From: Robertkochia marina
Lineage (GTDB): Bacteria; Bacteroidota; Bacteroidia; Flavobacteriales; Flavobacteriaceae
Assembly (NCBI RefSeq): GCF_004799345.1
Contig: NZ_SSMC01000001.1
Coordinates: 620,001 to 684,000, forward strand
DNA length: 64,000 bases
Direction: 5' to 3'
The notes under the pieces were generated by a model. The model worked only from the letters and a program-made list of their open reading frames with translations. It did not search any database and was not told the DNA's origin. This document shows, one piece after another, positions 2,626 through 57,460 of this stretch (position 1 is the stretch's first letter; the number at the start of each line of letters is the position of its first letter). Position numbers and translations under genes: made by a program.

Positions 2626-2667
2626 GGAGATCGCCACAGTTTGCAAAGCAAACTTCGCGAAGACGAC
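2626..2667. repeat. P2 hairpin element
   Basis: The conserved left flank GGAGATCGCCAC and right flank TCGCGAAGACGA enclose a hairpin with arms AGTTTGC and GCAAACT. This is one of at least eleven copies in the window that share flanks but differ in hairpin arms. It is followed by a short degenerate word repeat (cctcgtaac / cccataac / cttataac). Confidence 0.85.
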
Positions 2668-13372: not shown

Positions 13373-13800
13373 TGTCTTTGCGAGGTATTTGAAATGCGGA
13401 TTTCTTGTGTAGAATGATGACGTCATGAGGATTAACATAATTATGGGCTTCTTCCCCTGGTCAGGGAGGGCCAAGCGTAAAGAAATGGTTCGGTGAACCA
13501 TTTTAGCGAAGGCGCCTGAAGGCGGAGGGATGCGCCGCTAGAAGCGGGCCTGCCTGCGGTAGGCAGGGTCGGAAGGGGTTGTAGGAGAGGTCAATTTGAA
13601 TCAACCCGCCCCGTCTCAGGGTTTCACCCTGATCGCCCTCACGCCGGCTGGCTCCTGCACTAAAAACAGCCACTGGCTGTTTTCTTAACGTTCGGCCCTC
13701 TGTCCAGGGTGGGGAGCCACAATTTATATACTTTACAACAGAGTATCTAAATCTGTCAGCGGTAGGTGTTCCGATACTTCGTTAGACCGCGGCAATCTTA
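13373..13800. repeat. Composite repeat C1: P2-like shell with R1 core (long form)
   Basis: The outer shell runs from GTCTTTGCGAG to GCGGCAATCTT. The inner R1 core spans 13447-13718, inverted relative to the copies at 17.5 and 23.4 kb, with ends GGCTTCTTCC and GGAGCC. Inside the core are P3 palindromes (AAATGGTTCGGTGAACCATTT is a longer centre; AACAGCCACTGGCTGTT is another) and a CTGCCTGCGGTAGGCAG palindrome. No ORF is credible. This accounts for most of the gap after the kinase gene. Confidence 0.8.
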
Positions 13801-17351: not shown

Positions 17352-17394
17352 TCGTCTTCGCGAGTGCCACCTTGGGGGCACGTGGCGATCTCCC
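17352..17394. repeat. P2 hairpin element, arms GTGCC/GGCAC
   Basis: The conserved CGTCTTCGCGA and GTGGCGATCTCC flanks enclose GTGCC...GGCAC. This is a full solo copy. Confidence 0.85.
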
Positions 17395-23348: not shown

Positions 23349-23775
23349 GAGGAGATTGCCACGCTTTGCACAGCAAAGCTACCACTGATGGATTTAGATA
23401 CTCTGTTGTAAAGTATATAAATTGTGGCTCCCCACCCTGGACAGAGGGCCGAACGTTAAGAAAACAGCCAGTGGCTGTTTTTAGTGCAGGAGCCAGTCGG
23501 CGTGAGGGCGATCAGGGTGAAACCCTGAGACGGGGCGGGTTGATTCAAATTGACCTCTCCTACAACCCCTTCCGACCCTGCCTACCGCAGGCAGGCCCGC
23601 TTCTAGCGGCGCATCCCTCCGCCTTCAGGCGCCTTCGCTAAAATGGTTCACCGAACCATTTCTTTACGCTTGGCCCTCCCTGACCAGGGGAAGGAGCCCA
23701 TAATTATGTTAATCCTCATGACGTCATCATACTCCACAAGAAATCCAATTTCAGCGGTCTCGCAAAGACATCCTA
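23349..23775. repeat. Composite repeat C3 with R1 core (long form)
   Basis: The left shell is GGAGATTGCCAC with hairpin GCTTTGC/GCAAAGC, then TACCACTGATGG. The R1 core spans 23426-23698. The right shell is 'cctcatgacgtcatcatac', then 'ttcagcggtctcgcaaagac'. This is the most complete composite in the window. The P3 palindromes inside the core have centres AACAGCCAGTGGCTGTT and AATGGTTCACCGAACCATT. Confidence 0.85.
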
Positions 23776-27977: not shown

Positions 27978-28307
27978 ATTGTAAATGGTAGATGATAGGT
28001 TAGGGAGTGATCCCGCTATAGCGGGATTAATTCCCAATTCTTGTTCTGCTGTGCCAATGGGCTTGCATCACAAGTTGGTCATTAAAGAGTCGGGAGTCGT
28101 AGTTTAAATTCGGTGGTGGAACTGGGAGATCGCCACTGGCCTACGATGCAGGCCATCGCGAAGACGAGAAGGTTCATTATTCATACTTTACCCCTCGTAC
28201 CTACGTACCTGCGTACCCTCGTACCTTTTTTCAGGAGATTGCCACACCCTGCCCTCGCAGGGTTCGCAAAGACGATTCATTCATCATTCATAATCCATCA
28301 TTCATAA
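27978..28307. repeat. Gap with two P2 hairpins and word repeats
   Basis: P2 copies lie at about 28123-28168 (arms TGGCCT/AGGCCA) and 28233-28275 (arms ACCCTGC/GCAGGGT). Between and around them are ATCCCGCTATAGCGGGAT, 'gtacctacgtacctgcgtac' and 'tcattcataatccatcattc' words. No gene is visible. Confidence 0.75.
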
Positions 28308-43205: not shown

Positions 43206-43460
43206 TTAGACAGTTATGCGGTCCTGCCTGCCGGTAGGCAGGTATGCGGTTATGCAGTATTGTCATTGCGAGGAAGGGCAAAGCCCTGACGTGGCAATCT
43301 CCTGAATCGCTAACAGGTTACGGGGTACGAGGTACGAGTTACTAAATATTCGTCTTCGCGAACTTTGCTTTGCAAAGTGTGGCGATCTCCCGTAATCGAT
43401 AACAGGGTTCGGGGTACAAAGTTATTCTATTCGGAATTTGAATATTCCCCCTGCAAACTG
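43206..43460. repeat. Two P2 hairpins and word repeats
   Basis: One copy is of the GTCATTGCGA...GTGGCAATCTCC type (43262-43303, arms AGGGC/GCCCT) and one of the CGTCTTCGCGA...GTGGCGATCTCC type (43349-43392, arms ACTTTGC/GCAAAGT). Also present are CCTGCCTGCCGGTAGGCAGG and 'gggtacgaggtacgagttac' words, and 'gcaaactgcaaactgctc' words at the end. Confidence 0.8.
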
Positions 43461-48413: not shown

Positions 48414-48456
48414 TCGTCTTCGCGAGGCACCCTCCAGGGTGACGTGGCGATCTCCG
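48414..48456. repeat. P2 hairpin, left boundary of the deleted GIY-YIG element
   Basis: CGTCTTCGCGA, arms CACCCT/AGGGTG, then GTGGCGATCTCC. The same hairpin tip (cacccttcagggtg) precedes the intact GIY-YIG gene at 57.0 kb, tying the two loci together. Confidence 0.85.
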
Positions 48457-48492
48457 CGTTACAGTATTGAATTCATAACAAATTCGAAGTTC

Positions 48493-48571
48493 CTACGTAA
48501 TAGCAAAGATCCACCACTCAGAGAGATCATTCCATTCAGGATTATCGGCTTCAATGAATTTTATCTTGGCT
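48493..48571 (-). pseudogene. GIY-YIG nuclease remnant (C-terminal 25 codons)
   Basis: On the minus strand the reading frame AKIKFIEADNPEWNDL continues to a stop and matches the C-terminus of the intact nuclease at 57.1 kb (KINLIEADNPEWNDLSEGW). Similarity extends through the non-coding sequence downstream to the P2 boundary. On the other side the DNA jumps directly to 'gtgttcggtactttatttt', matching the sequence just outside the intact gene's start. About 245 bp of gene interior are missing while both element ends remain. The surviving frame and stop codon are intact. Confidence 0.8.
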
Positions 48572-48601
48572 TGCAAATTCTTAGTGTTCGGTACTTTATT
48601 T

Positions 48602-48671
48602 TGGGAGACCTGTCTGCCGTGGCATGCCAGGCAGGTCGCCACAGTTTGCTTCGCAAACCTCGCGAAGACGA
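48602..48671. repeat. P2 hairpin with 30-bp palindrome inserted, right boundary
   Basis: GGGAG is followed by ACCTGTCTGCCGTGGCATGC and its pairing arm, then TCGCCAC, arms GTTTGC/GCAAAC, and TCGCGAAGACGA. It is the inverted counterpart of the P2 copy on the other side of the GIY-YIG remnant. Confidence 0.85.
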
Positions 48672-56677: not shown

Positions 56678-57021
56678 TTCGTCTTCGCGAGACCGCTGAA
56701 ATTTGATTTCTTGTGGAGAATGATGACGAATTAGTTATATTAATATTGGGCTCCTTCCCCTGGTCAGGGGAAGGTACTCTTGCTGAAAGCAAGAGGGGAA
56801 GGGGTTGTATGTGAAGATTACCTGAATCAACCCGCCCCGTCTCAGGGTTTCACCCTGATCGCCCTCACGCCAGCTGGCTCCTTCACTAAAAACAGCCACT
56901 GGCTGTTTTCTTAACGTTCGGCCCTCTGTCCAGGGTGGGGAGCCACATTTTATAATTTTTTTCAACAGAGAATCTAAATCCGTCAGTGGTAGGCACCCTT
57001 CAGGGTGACGTGGCGATCTCC
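56678..57021. repeat. Composite repeat C6 with R1 core, inverted
   Basis: The shell runs from CGTCTTCGCGAGACCGCTG to CAGTGGTAGG, hairpin CACCCTTCAGGGTG and GTGGCGATCTCC. The R1 core at 56749-56944 is reversed relative to C3. Its right boundary is also the left boundary of the GIY-YIG element. Confidence 0.85.
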
Positions 57022-57058
57022 CTGTTAAAGTACTGAATTCATAAGAAATTTGAAGTCC

Positions 57059-57361
57059 CTAAATAACATCAAAAATCCATCCCTCAGAGAGGTCATTCCA
57101 TTCCGGATTATCAGCTTCTATGAGATTTATTTTATAGGTTCTACTACGTTTTTTGATTTGTTTCTCTCTTGCAATAGCCATCTGCATATCCAGAAACGTC
57201 TCATAATAAACAAGCAGGGAACAATTGTATCTAGTTGTAAACCCGGGATACATTTTTGATTTATGCTGATAGATTCGGCGAGTCAAATTGCTTGTAACTC
57301 CAACATATAAAACTGTATGATGAGCATTGGTTAGGATATACACGCAGCTCGTCTCGAACAT
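57059..57361 (-). CDS. Stand-alone GIY-YIG nuclease (COG2827-type)
   Basis: This 100-residue predicted endonuclease has a UvrC-type GIY-YIG domain. VYILTN stands for the GIY strand and LYVGVTS for YIG, 10 residues on. The catalytic Arg and nearby His are in LTRRIYQHKS, with a glutamate in AREKQIKKRSR. The protein is just one domain, with no DNA-binding fusion. It lies exactly between two inverted GGCGATCTCC motifs belonging to P2 hairpins. A deletion derivative of the gene plus both flanks occurs at 48.5 kb. Stand-alone members are multicopy in many flavobacteria and have no settled role; I suggest a role in spreading or processing the repeats. Confidence 0.9.
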   Translation of the reverse strand: MFETSCVYILTNAHHTVLYVGVTSNLTRRIYQHKSKMYPGFTTRYNCSLLVYYETFLDMQMAIAREKQIKKRSRTYKINLIEADNPEWNDLSEGWIFDVI

Positions 57362-57415
57362 TAGAATCTATTTTATTTAAATATAGTAAATTTTCTACGT
57401 GTTCGGTGATTGTTT

Positions 57416-57460
57416 TGGGAGATCGCCACGCCCCACTATAGTGGGGCTCGCGAAGACGAG
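57416..57460. repeat. P2 hairpin, right boundary of the GIY-YIG element
   Basis: GGGAGATCGCCAC, arms GCCCCAC/GTGGGGC, then TCGCGAAGACGA. It is inverted relative to the P2 half at 57.0 kb on the other side of the nuclease gene. Confidence 0.85.

Follow-up and report, generated by a model that had tools for sequence, protein, structure and literature searches.

The closest described systems to the locus reported here are the REP/RAYT systems (REPtrons and REPINs), with which it shares a gene between inverted, tagged hairpins, dispersed non-autonomous hairpins, co-variation of enzyme and repeat, and a repeat number correlated with the gene. The available part of Nunvar et al. 2010 (PMC2817692) describes inverted REPs around the RAYT gene, co-evolution of the two, and a REP number that correlates with RAYT presence. 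In those systems the enzyme is of the HUH/Y1 type and the tag is GTAG, whereas here the enzyme is an unrelated GIY-YIG nuclease and the tag is YGTC. A second relevant group is that of the CGTC-tagged REPs, which have a stem of 8–9 bp that begins with A-T pairs, a loop of 4–5 nucleotides, and a 3' CCA tail, and which apparently have no dedicated transposase, as given in the accessible text of Di Nocera et al. 2013 (PMC3733652). The dRS3 repeats of Neisseria are CGTC-1 palindromes in the same portion of that article (PMC3733652).

The locus lies in a window of 64,000 nucleotides of Robertkochia marina DNA, the window being the whole stretch that was analyzed. GIY-YIG is the fold of homing endonucleases, which share with this locus the catalytic domain and selfish spread; unlike theirs, the gene described here is intergenic, is flanked by its own inverted hairpins, and has no visible intron or intein. 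The UPF0213/COG2827 nucleases, reportedly including Ssn of Neisseria, belong to the same protein family as the window nuclease, and a 2025 paper is said to describe such nucleases (Ssn) as cutting single-stranded DNA site-specifically and acting on a Neisseria repeat. No report joining GIY-YIG genes to REP spread was found among titles and the beginnings of abstracts, in a search that covered few preprints and subscription papers. The original prediction was that this nuclease might nick, copy, or spread the palindromes around it. Our results support that link in part, and they add that flank type follows nuclease type and that the unit has been mobile over evolutionary time. The locus is probably a REPtron-like small mobile unit in which a GIY-YIG nuclease takes the place of the RAYT (HUH) transposase.

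A GIY-YIG gene between inverted P2 palindromes

The features of the window to which the text refers are given below.

57059..57361, minus strand: GIY-YIG nuclease gene of the UPF0213/COG2827 type, 100 aa, ATG start (open reading frame and Pfam)
56991..57460, no strand: whole nuclease unit, its boundary taken from comparison with the derivative at 48415–48670
56991..57021, plus strand: left P2 hairpin, which keeps the hairpin and the inner motif
57418..57460, minus strand: complete right P2 hairpin, reading CTCGTC-TTCGCGAG-hairpin-GTGGCGATCTCC on the minus strand, tag outward
48415..48670, no strand: internally deleted derivative of the unit, 8.6 kb from the intact unit
48415–48455: left P2 of the derivative
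48499–48600, minus strand: remaining 3' third of the nuclease gene in the derivative, residues 66–99 of the protein
48604–48670: right P2 of the derivative, its inner motif split by a further palindrome
2626..2665, minus strand: further P2 copy
17353..17393, plus strand: further P2 copy
28125..28166, minus strand: further P2 copy
43351..43390, plus strand: further P2 copy

The product of 57059–57361 matches the Pfam GIY-YIG domain (PF01541) with an E value of 1.1e-15, and its residues Y8, Y19, G21, R29, H33, and E66 are among those invariant in 26 aligned sequences. Its predicted fold (mean pLDDT 94) has the UPF0213 protein BH0048 (1zg2) as its best match, with a TM score of 0.56 and the only E value below 0.001, followed by Slx1 and then UvrC. 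The nearest solved structures by sequence are likewise UPF0213 proteins, 1zg2 (E 1.4e-8) and 1ywl (E 2.2e-6). Sequence and predicted fold both place the window nuclease in UPF0213. Assignments by PADLOC and NCBIfam were set aside; the matches are weak and appear to reflect the shared GIY-YIG core only. Membership in UPF0213 is in keeping with an alternative in which the protein is a physiological nuclease similar to Ssn, the site-specific single-strand nuclease of the same family that is reportedly present in Neisseria. Such an enzyme would cut single-stranded DNA at repeats to control uptake or repair and would move nothing, and the position of the gene would be explained by cutting at the flanking repeats that regulates or protects it. 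The assignment of dRS3 to the CGTC-1 palindromes, noted above from the available part of PMC3733652, also fits this alternative, to which we return with the Chryseobacterium data.

Both ends of the gene had been described as lying within about 60 bases of inverted GGCGATCTCC motifs, and the distances are 37 and 56 bases: one motif, at 57012–57021 on the plus strand, lies 37 bases past the stop codon, and its inverted copy, at 57418–57427, lies 56 bases ahead of the ATG. The full P2 described on the right is present, and on the left, where the end of a composite had been described, the CGTC tag end of P2 has been replaced by the end of another composite repeat. The window unit has the gene between two inverted REPs that characterizes a RAYT REPtron, but the enclosed protein is a GIY-YIG domain and not an HUH/Y1 transposase; its anatomy is otherwise that of the RAYT units in the available part of PMC2817692 and that of REPINs. 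Inverted repeats were scored at 71 loci, consisting of 70 from 86 matches (weak, partial, and same-locus matches excluded) plus L005. The window copy scores only 14 for its own inverted repeat, against a 99th percentile of 12 and a maximum of 16 in the null.

The deleted derivative supplies the boundary of the unit. Positions 48425–48567 are 85% identical to 56991–57133, and both the intact unit and the derivative extend at the right to a P2 end with its CGTC tag, beyond which the flanking DNA diverges. Terminal inverted repeats together with deleted derivatives are also traits of insertion sequences and MITEs. Within the inner motif of the derivative's right P2 lies a palindrome at 48604–48639, an instance of palindromes nested in palindromes. 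Elsewhere in the window, the composite repeats at 13398–13765 and 23379–23746 (368 nucleotides, 98% complementary, 9.6 kb apart) probably represent recent spread or conversion of large composites.

The P2 motif, allowing at most one mismatch, occurs at 24 sites in the window versus 4.0 expected, and exact copies of GGCGATCTCC number 67 genome-wide versus 0 for the reversed control; its occurrence is not due to chance. P2 has the layout CGTC-TTCGC-GAG-(inner hairpin)-GTG-GCGAT-CTCC. The right P2 folds with CTCGTCT unpaired, an outer stem TCGC/GCGA, an inner hairpin, and TCTCC unpaired. Among 20 distinct P2 inner sequences, in which the outer parts were fixed by the search pattern, there are 17 different 5' arms, and the inner stems have a mean of 6.4 bp paired versus 4.4 in shuffles, so the structure of P2 is kept while its sequence is not. 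The same layout is found in the palindromes of relatives, YGTC-ATTGC-GAG...GAA-GCAAT-CTC, and both have an unpaired CGTC or TGTC tag at one end of the hairpin. In the relatives, ATTGC is the commonest arm, the stretch between the 5-bp arms is mostly 10–50 nucleotides, and CTC is the commonest 3' tail; a CCA tail occurs in 9 cases, which include loci titled Alphaproteobacteria, Rickettsiaceae, Elusimicrobiota, and Acidobacteria. Judged by layout, P2 appears to be a local variant of the YGTC-tagged palindromes. These palindromes share with the CGTC REP superfamily, as described in the accessible part of PMC3733652, an unpaired YGTC tag, inverted dimers, and occurrence in several phyla, and they resemble it in the AT-led stem and short tail, but the window P2 differs in its T.T first pair and its extra inner hairpin. 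No associated transposase gene accompanies the CGTC REPs in that part of the text, whereas here a nuclease gene regularly adjoins. P2 was also considered as the REP of the genome's IS200-like genes (PF01797) and rejected, as both such loci lie elsewhere and carry other repeats. At one of them, L077, the IS200-like gene lies amid CTACCGCGTACGTCTTCGTCCGTGG repeats, a separate family.

In its literal P2 sense, the proposed link between nuclease and repeat is local. The closest relative in the genus, L008 of genome G004, is flanked by a P2 tag to the left and to the right. No P2 tag accompanies the three remaining stand-alone GIY-YIG genes of the window genome, which have no more than a single distant, mismatched motif; two of them adjoin partial duplications, of tRNA-Leu and of the start of an epimerase gene, as judged by eye. 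The orthologous site in four congeners was tried as a clean empty site and rejected: the GIY-YIG gene is present in none of the four, a 23S_rRNA_IVP gene occupies the site in three, and another gene occupies it in one. At L139, L140, and L141, located 3' of esterase orthologues, the 23S_rRNA_IVP gene (assigned by Pfam, run on the L140 copy) lies between inverted arrays of short degenerate tandem units.

YGTC palindromes beside nuclease genes in other bacteria

A profile of nine nucleases, picked by protein similarity only, was used to collect 557 relatives, and the best 80 were taken as named loci; two of these were dropped for short flanks, leaving 78. In this best-80-of-557 set, 81 of the 156 flanks have a CGTC tag with a 5-bp hairpin no more than 300 bp from the gene, versus 23 of 292 windows located 600 bp or more from it, and CGTC ranks first among the 256 four-base tags beside the gene (p 3.8e-25). 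CGAA is the second most enriched tag and TGTC the third (57/156 flanks versus 30/292 windows). With arms of 6–8 bp, GCGA, CGAA, and GAAG lead and CGTC is outside the top ten tags listed, which would follow from an outer stem of about five pairs. A strict motif was defined as YGTCA with 5-bp arms and a following C; it misses P2 itself because of P2's T.T pair. In the same best-80-of-557 set, this strict hairpin is found in 95/156 flanks versus 23/318 distal windows. Read in terms of YGTC palindromes, the proposed link is largely borne out: 63 of the 78 loci carry a strict hairpin no farther than 300 bp from the gene (32 are two-sided and 31 one-sided), and 15 have none. Among neighboring open reading frames of the same named loci, only 6 of 122 are flanked on both sides.

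The Flavobacteriales give a similar comparison. Strict hairpins flank 14 of 65 nuclease genes on both sides and 26 on any side, with none within 300 bp at 39, versus 0 and 12, respectively, of 318 control open reading frames from twenty 20-kb regions. At an arm length of 5, TGTC (48/138 versus 147/1280) and CGTC (27/138 versus 72/1280) are each enriched about fourfold and only CGAG ranks ahead of them, with TGTC second and CGTC third. In the best-80-of-557 set, 35 of 46 hairpins closest to the gene on its downstream side are oriented outward, versus only 27 of 49 on the upstream side, where there is little orientation bias. The inverted arrangement with tags outward (+,-) is the commonest, accounting for 17 of the 32 two-sided loci, but is not universal.

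The association extends well beyond this order. Twenty-eight loci titled for other groups (one of them, L171, is titled Bacteroidetes) were chosen from record titles, with records titled only 'bacterium' left out except L167 and L216, which name a bin or candidate group, and with the inclusion of L181, one of the two loci dropped above for short flanks. Of these, 26 are flanked, 17 on both sides; L167 and L212 have no flanking hairpin. By title, the named loci reach Gamma- and Alphaproteobacteria, Helicobacter, Spirochaetes, Acidobacteria, Chloroflexi, Clostridia, Patescibacteria, Elusimicrobiota, Cloacimonadota, Omnitrophota, and others, more than ten phyla in all, mostly from MAG contigs. 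The association of gene and repeat is close to certain.

Flank type also varies with nuclease type. For 63 of the 71 scored loci, from 28 genomes, flank similarity between genomes tracks protein similarity (rho 0.19, p 0.001), the best of 999 free permutations reaching a rho of 0.09. Shuffling restricted to flanks within each genome weakens the signal (p 0.0005). A good flank match in another genome exists for 39 genes; their partners lie on average at the 90th percentile of protein similarity, versus the 52nd when shuffled (p 0.002). Because some flank matches are tRNA sequence or collinear orthologous loci, the test was repeated with 57 genes after exclusion of eight tRNA-lodged or truncated loci, six of which belong to the 63, and of five collinear pairs; rho is then 0.22 (p 0.001), and the partner percentile is 0.88 versus 0.51 (p 0.0025). 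A good flank match between two genes of one genome is rare in this set (2 of 55 pairs), and in the larger set the correlation does not reach significance when confined to such same-genome pairs (65 pairs, p 0.12). The pairing is a modest effect, part of which could stem from shared descent, or joint inheritance of the whole unit with its flanks. These features resemble the co-evolution of enzyme and repeat in RAYT systems, in which repeat number follows the gene, with exceptions here in number.

These comparisons bear on the possibility that the gene is a passenger, with the palindromes acting as hotspots for host recombination or for other transposases, or as terminators or RNA stabilizers, and with small genes accumulating beside them. 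Such an origin would account for the four other inverted P2 motif pairs in the window genome, 194–311 bp from start to start, which enclose other DNA. The rarity of two-sided flanking in control (0/318) and neighboring (6/122) frames, as well as the fit of flank type to nuclease type within single genomes, speak against it, and we consider it very unlikely.

Other subfamilies show other surroundings. At L030, L034, L096, L097, L100, and L304, a second nuclease subfamily (IL.CSD type) has TTCTCGATAC...CACTTCGAG-like flanks, often direct. At L001, L105, L107, L108, L110, L302, and L306, another GIY-YIG subfamily adjoins partial tRNA gene duplications, as seen by eye; at L001, small palindromes are inserted in the duplicated part of the tRNA. 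At L002, the GIY-YIG gene lies behind a duplication of about 38 bp of the start of an epimerase gene. In Chryseobacterium G361 and G424 (L307 and L312), another type-A nuclease lies between minimal inverted hairpins consisting of TGTC, a 5-bp stem, a 3-nucleotide loop, and CTA. Long direct repeats were examined as possible target duplications and rejected: they score at least 15 at 35 of 70 Flavobacteriales loci and by eye are mostly palindrome copies, only the tRNA and gene-start cases resembling real duplications.

Presence, absence, and repeat number in Chryseobacterium

The locus of C. gilvum (L194) shares only the unit of about 400 bp with five congeners, whose loci are otherwise mutually collinear. 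The spacers at the L194 site are too diverged for an empty-site comparison, which was therefore made at L195, in a survey of 118 Chryseobacterium genomes, one for each species, with site states counted among the matches listed. Among these matches, 13 genomes have the unit in the L195 spacer without a break, and 15 more have it there with extra DNA alongside. The spacer is empty in G361, G386, G352, and G393. In G350 and G391 it consists of a bare palindrome formed by the outer arms of the unit, in G365 it holds a decayed remnant, and in G409, G367, G394, and G414 it holds another gene, about 600 bases long. The unit ends in GTC...GAC, and the base ahead of GTC varies among the copies at this site. 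No target-site duplication is evident by eye at the L195 spacer, where spacers are highly diverged. At the L194 site, the unit is present, among the matches listed, in G246, in nine genomes whose loci (L289–L297) all align through the flanks, one of them (G380) identical to L194, and in G101 and G164. G405 carries the unit at both sites. In G316, from another genus of the family, only 8 bases lie between the flanks of the L194 site, a near-empty state. Four other genomes (L237, L238, L239, and L242) have an IS200-like gene with its own GGCTTTAGCC repeats at the L194 site (PF01797, E 1.4e-26, one tested). The L194 spacer is a single site used by two kinds of hairpin element, the GIY-YIG unit and the IS200-like gene. 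Occupation of both spacers by other genes, in four genomes each, is also what an accumulation of passengers at hotspots would produce.

That the unit has been mobile over evolutionary time is well supported by these orthologous comparisons. Both sites are common to many species, so moves are rare, and no fresh transposition was seen in the genomes compared. The finding of a bare palindrome and a full unit at the same spacer in different species could also be explained by a homing endonuclease that cuts gene-less palindromes, with the gene copied in by homologous repair; the palindromes would then be targets rather than ends. The GIY-YIG fold and a weak similarity to an intron-endonuclease model, under its cut-off, are compatible with homing. 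However, sister species of those with an occupied spacer can have an empty one that lacks any palindrome (L282–L285), suggesting that unit and palindromes come in together, and homing is the least probable of the explanations weighed, a highly improbable one.

Some Chryseobacterium nuclease copies contain stops. From 44 loci (a few from the same genome twice), 32 intact open reading frames were compared, and the median dN/dS is 0.07 over the 318 of 496 pairs with dS defined and above 0.1, with synonymous sites near saturation. The nuclease gene is under purifying selection. A ratio of 0.07 suits an enzyme useful to its host, as the physiological single-strand nuclease introduced above would be. 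Against that alternative, orthologous sites can lack the tag-bounded unit or have only a bare palindrome, as expected of a mobile element, and 29 of the 118 genomes have no nuclease match at all among the matches listed. An Ssn-like role without movement is accordingly unlikely, and a mobile unit is preferred.

A comparison of repeat number between strains with and without the nuclease had been proposed, and the two groups differ: the median, from the matches listed and with phylogeny ignored, is 6 repeats in the 40 Chryseobacterium genomes with a cognate nuclease (E up to 1e-30) versus 2 in the 78 without. After two repeats per unit are subtracted, the medians are 4 versus 2 (p 3.9e-5, 40 versus 78 genomes, phylogeny ignored). 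Weakly the same trend appears in 60 relatives, with a median of 3 in 22 genomes with a type-A nuclease (E up to 2.2e-17) versus 1 in 38 without (p 0.003). Among genomes with many repeats, G346, G378, and G385 have 26–29 copies of the motif. Equally active P2 families in strains without any GIY-YIG gene had been named as a sign of mere coincidence, and this is seen in part: 16 of the 78 Chryseobacterium genomes without a cognate nuclease still have at least 5 repeats, from the matches listed, and, also among the matches listed, G001, G003, and G020 have 85, 34, and 34 copies of YGTCWTYGCGAG without a close relative of the nuclease. In G001, a congener, the sequence up to about 1.5 kb from each of the three small GIY-YIG genes (L302, L310, and L323) contains no P2 tag, with L302 and L310 having a loose one-sided YGTC hairpin, and the only two GIY-YIG matches of G020 lie in frames of 608 and 379 aa. 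Such genomes may have lost the nuclease or may use a different enzyme; in either case, the repeats do not require a resident gene.

Proposed movement of the unit

Our studies allow a mechanism to be proposed. Two YGTC-tagged hairpins, inverted and with tags outward, bound a nuclease gene of the UPF0213 type encoding about 100 aa. The nuclease most likely recognizes the hairpin and the YGTC tag in single-stranded or extruded DNA, as arises during replication, repair, or uptake, and would cut at or beside the tag. Once released, the unit or a pair of palindromes by itself would pass through a single-stranded intermediate and be rejoined elsewhere or copied by repair, with this enzyme rather than host recombination presumably moving it. 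The non-autonomous derivatives would include solitary P2 hairpins, P2 pairs that enclose other DNA, and deleted units like the one at 48415–48670. From the genomic comparisons, the nuclease is the likely mover of its unit, and it is the best candidate for the spreader of a large palindrome family that has no known mover.

On a broader scale, we give roughly even chances to the proposal that the UPF0213/COG2827 GIY-YIG proteins are dedicated mobilizers of YGTC palindromes, a second, non-HUH class of hairpin element that spans more than ten phyla and includes dRS3 and RPE. If the Ssn paper already ties the family to such repeats, the cutting step is less new; the evidence for a mobile unit, the cross-phylum tag enrichment, and the within-genome pairing would stand regardless. 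The matched pairs of nuclease and repeat make the question of the missing mover of the CGTC REPs (Di Nocera et al.) testable biochemically. If true, the proposal would account for what a widespread family of small, stand-alone GIY-YIG genes does, would explain the origin of many bacterial intergenic palindromes, and would provide a set of hairpin-specific nucleases with differing sequence preferences.
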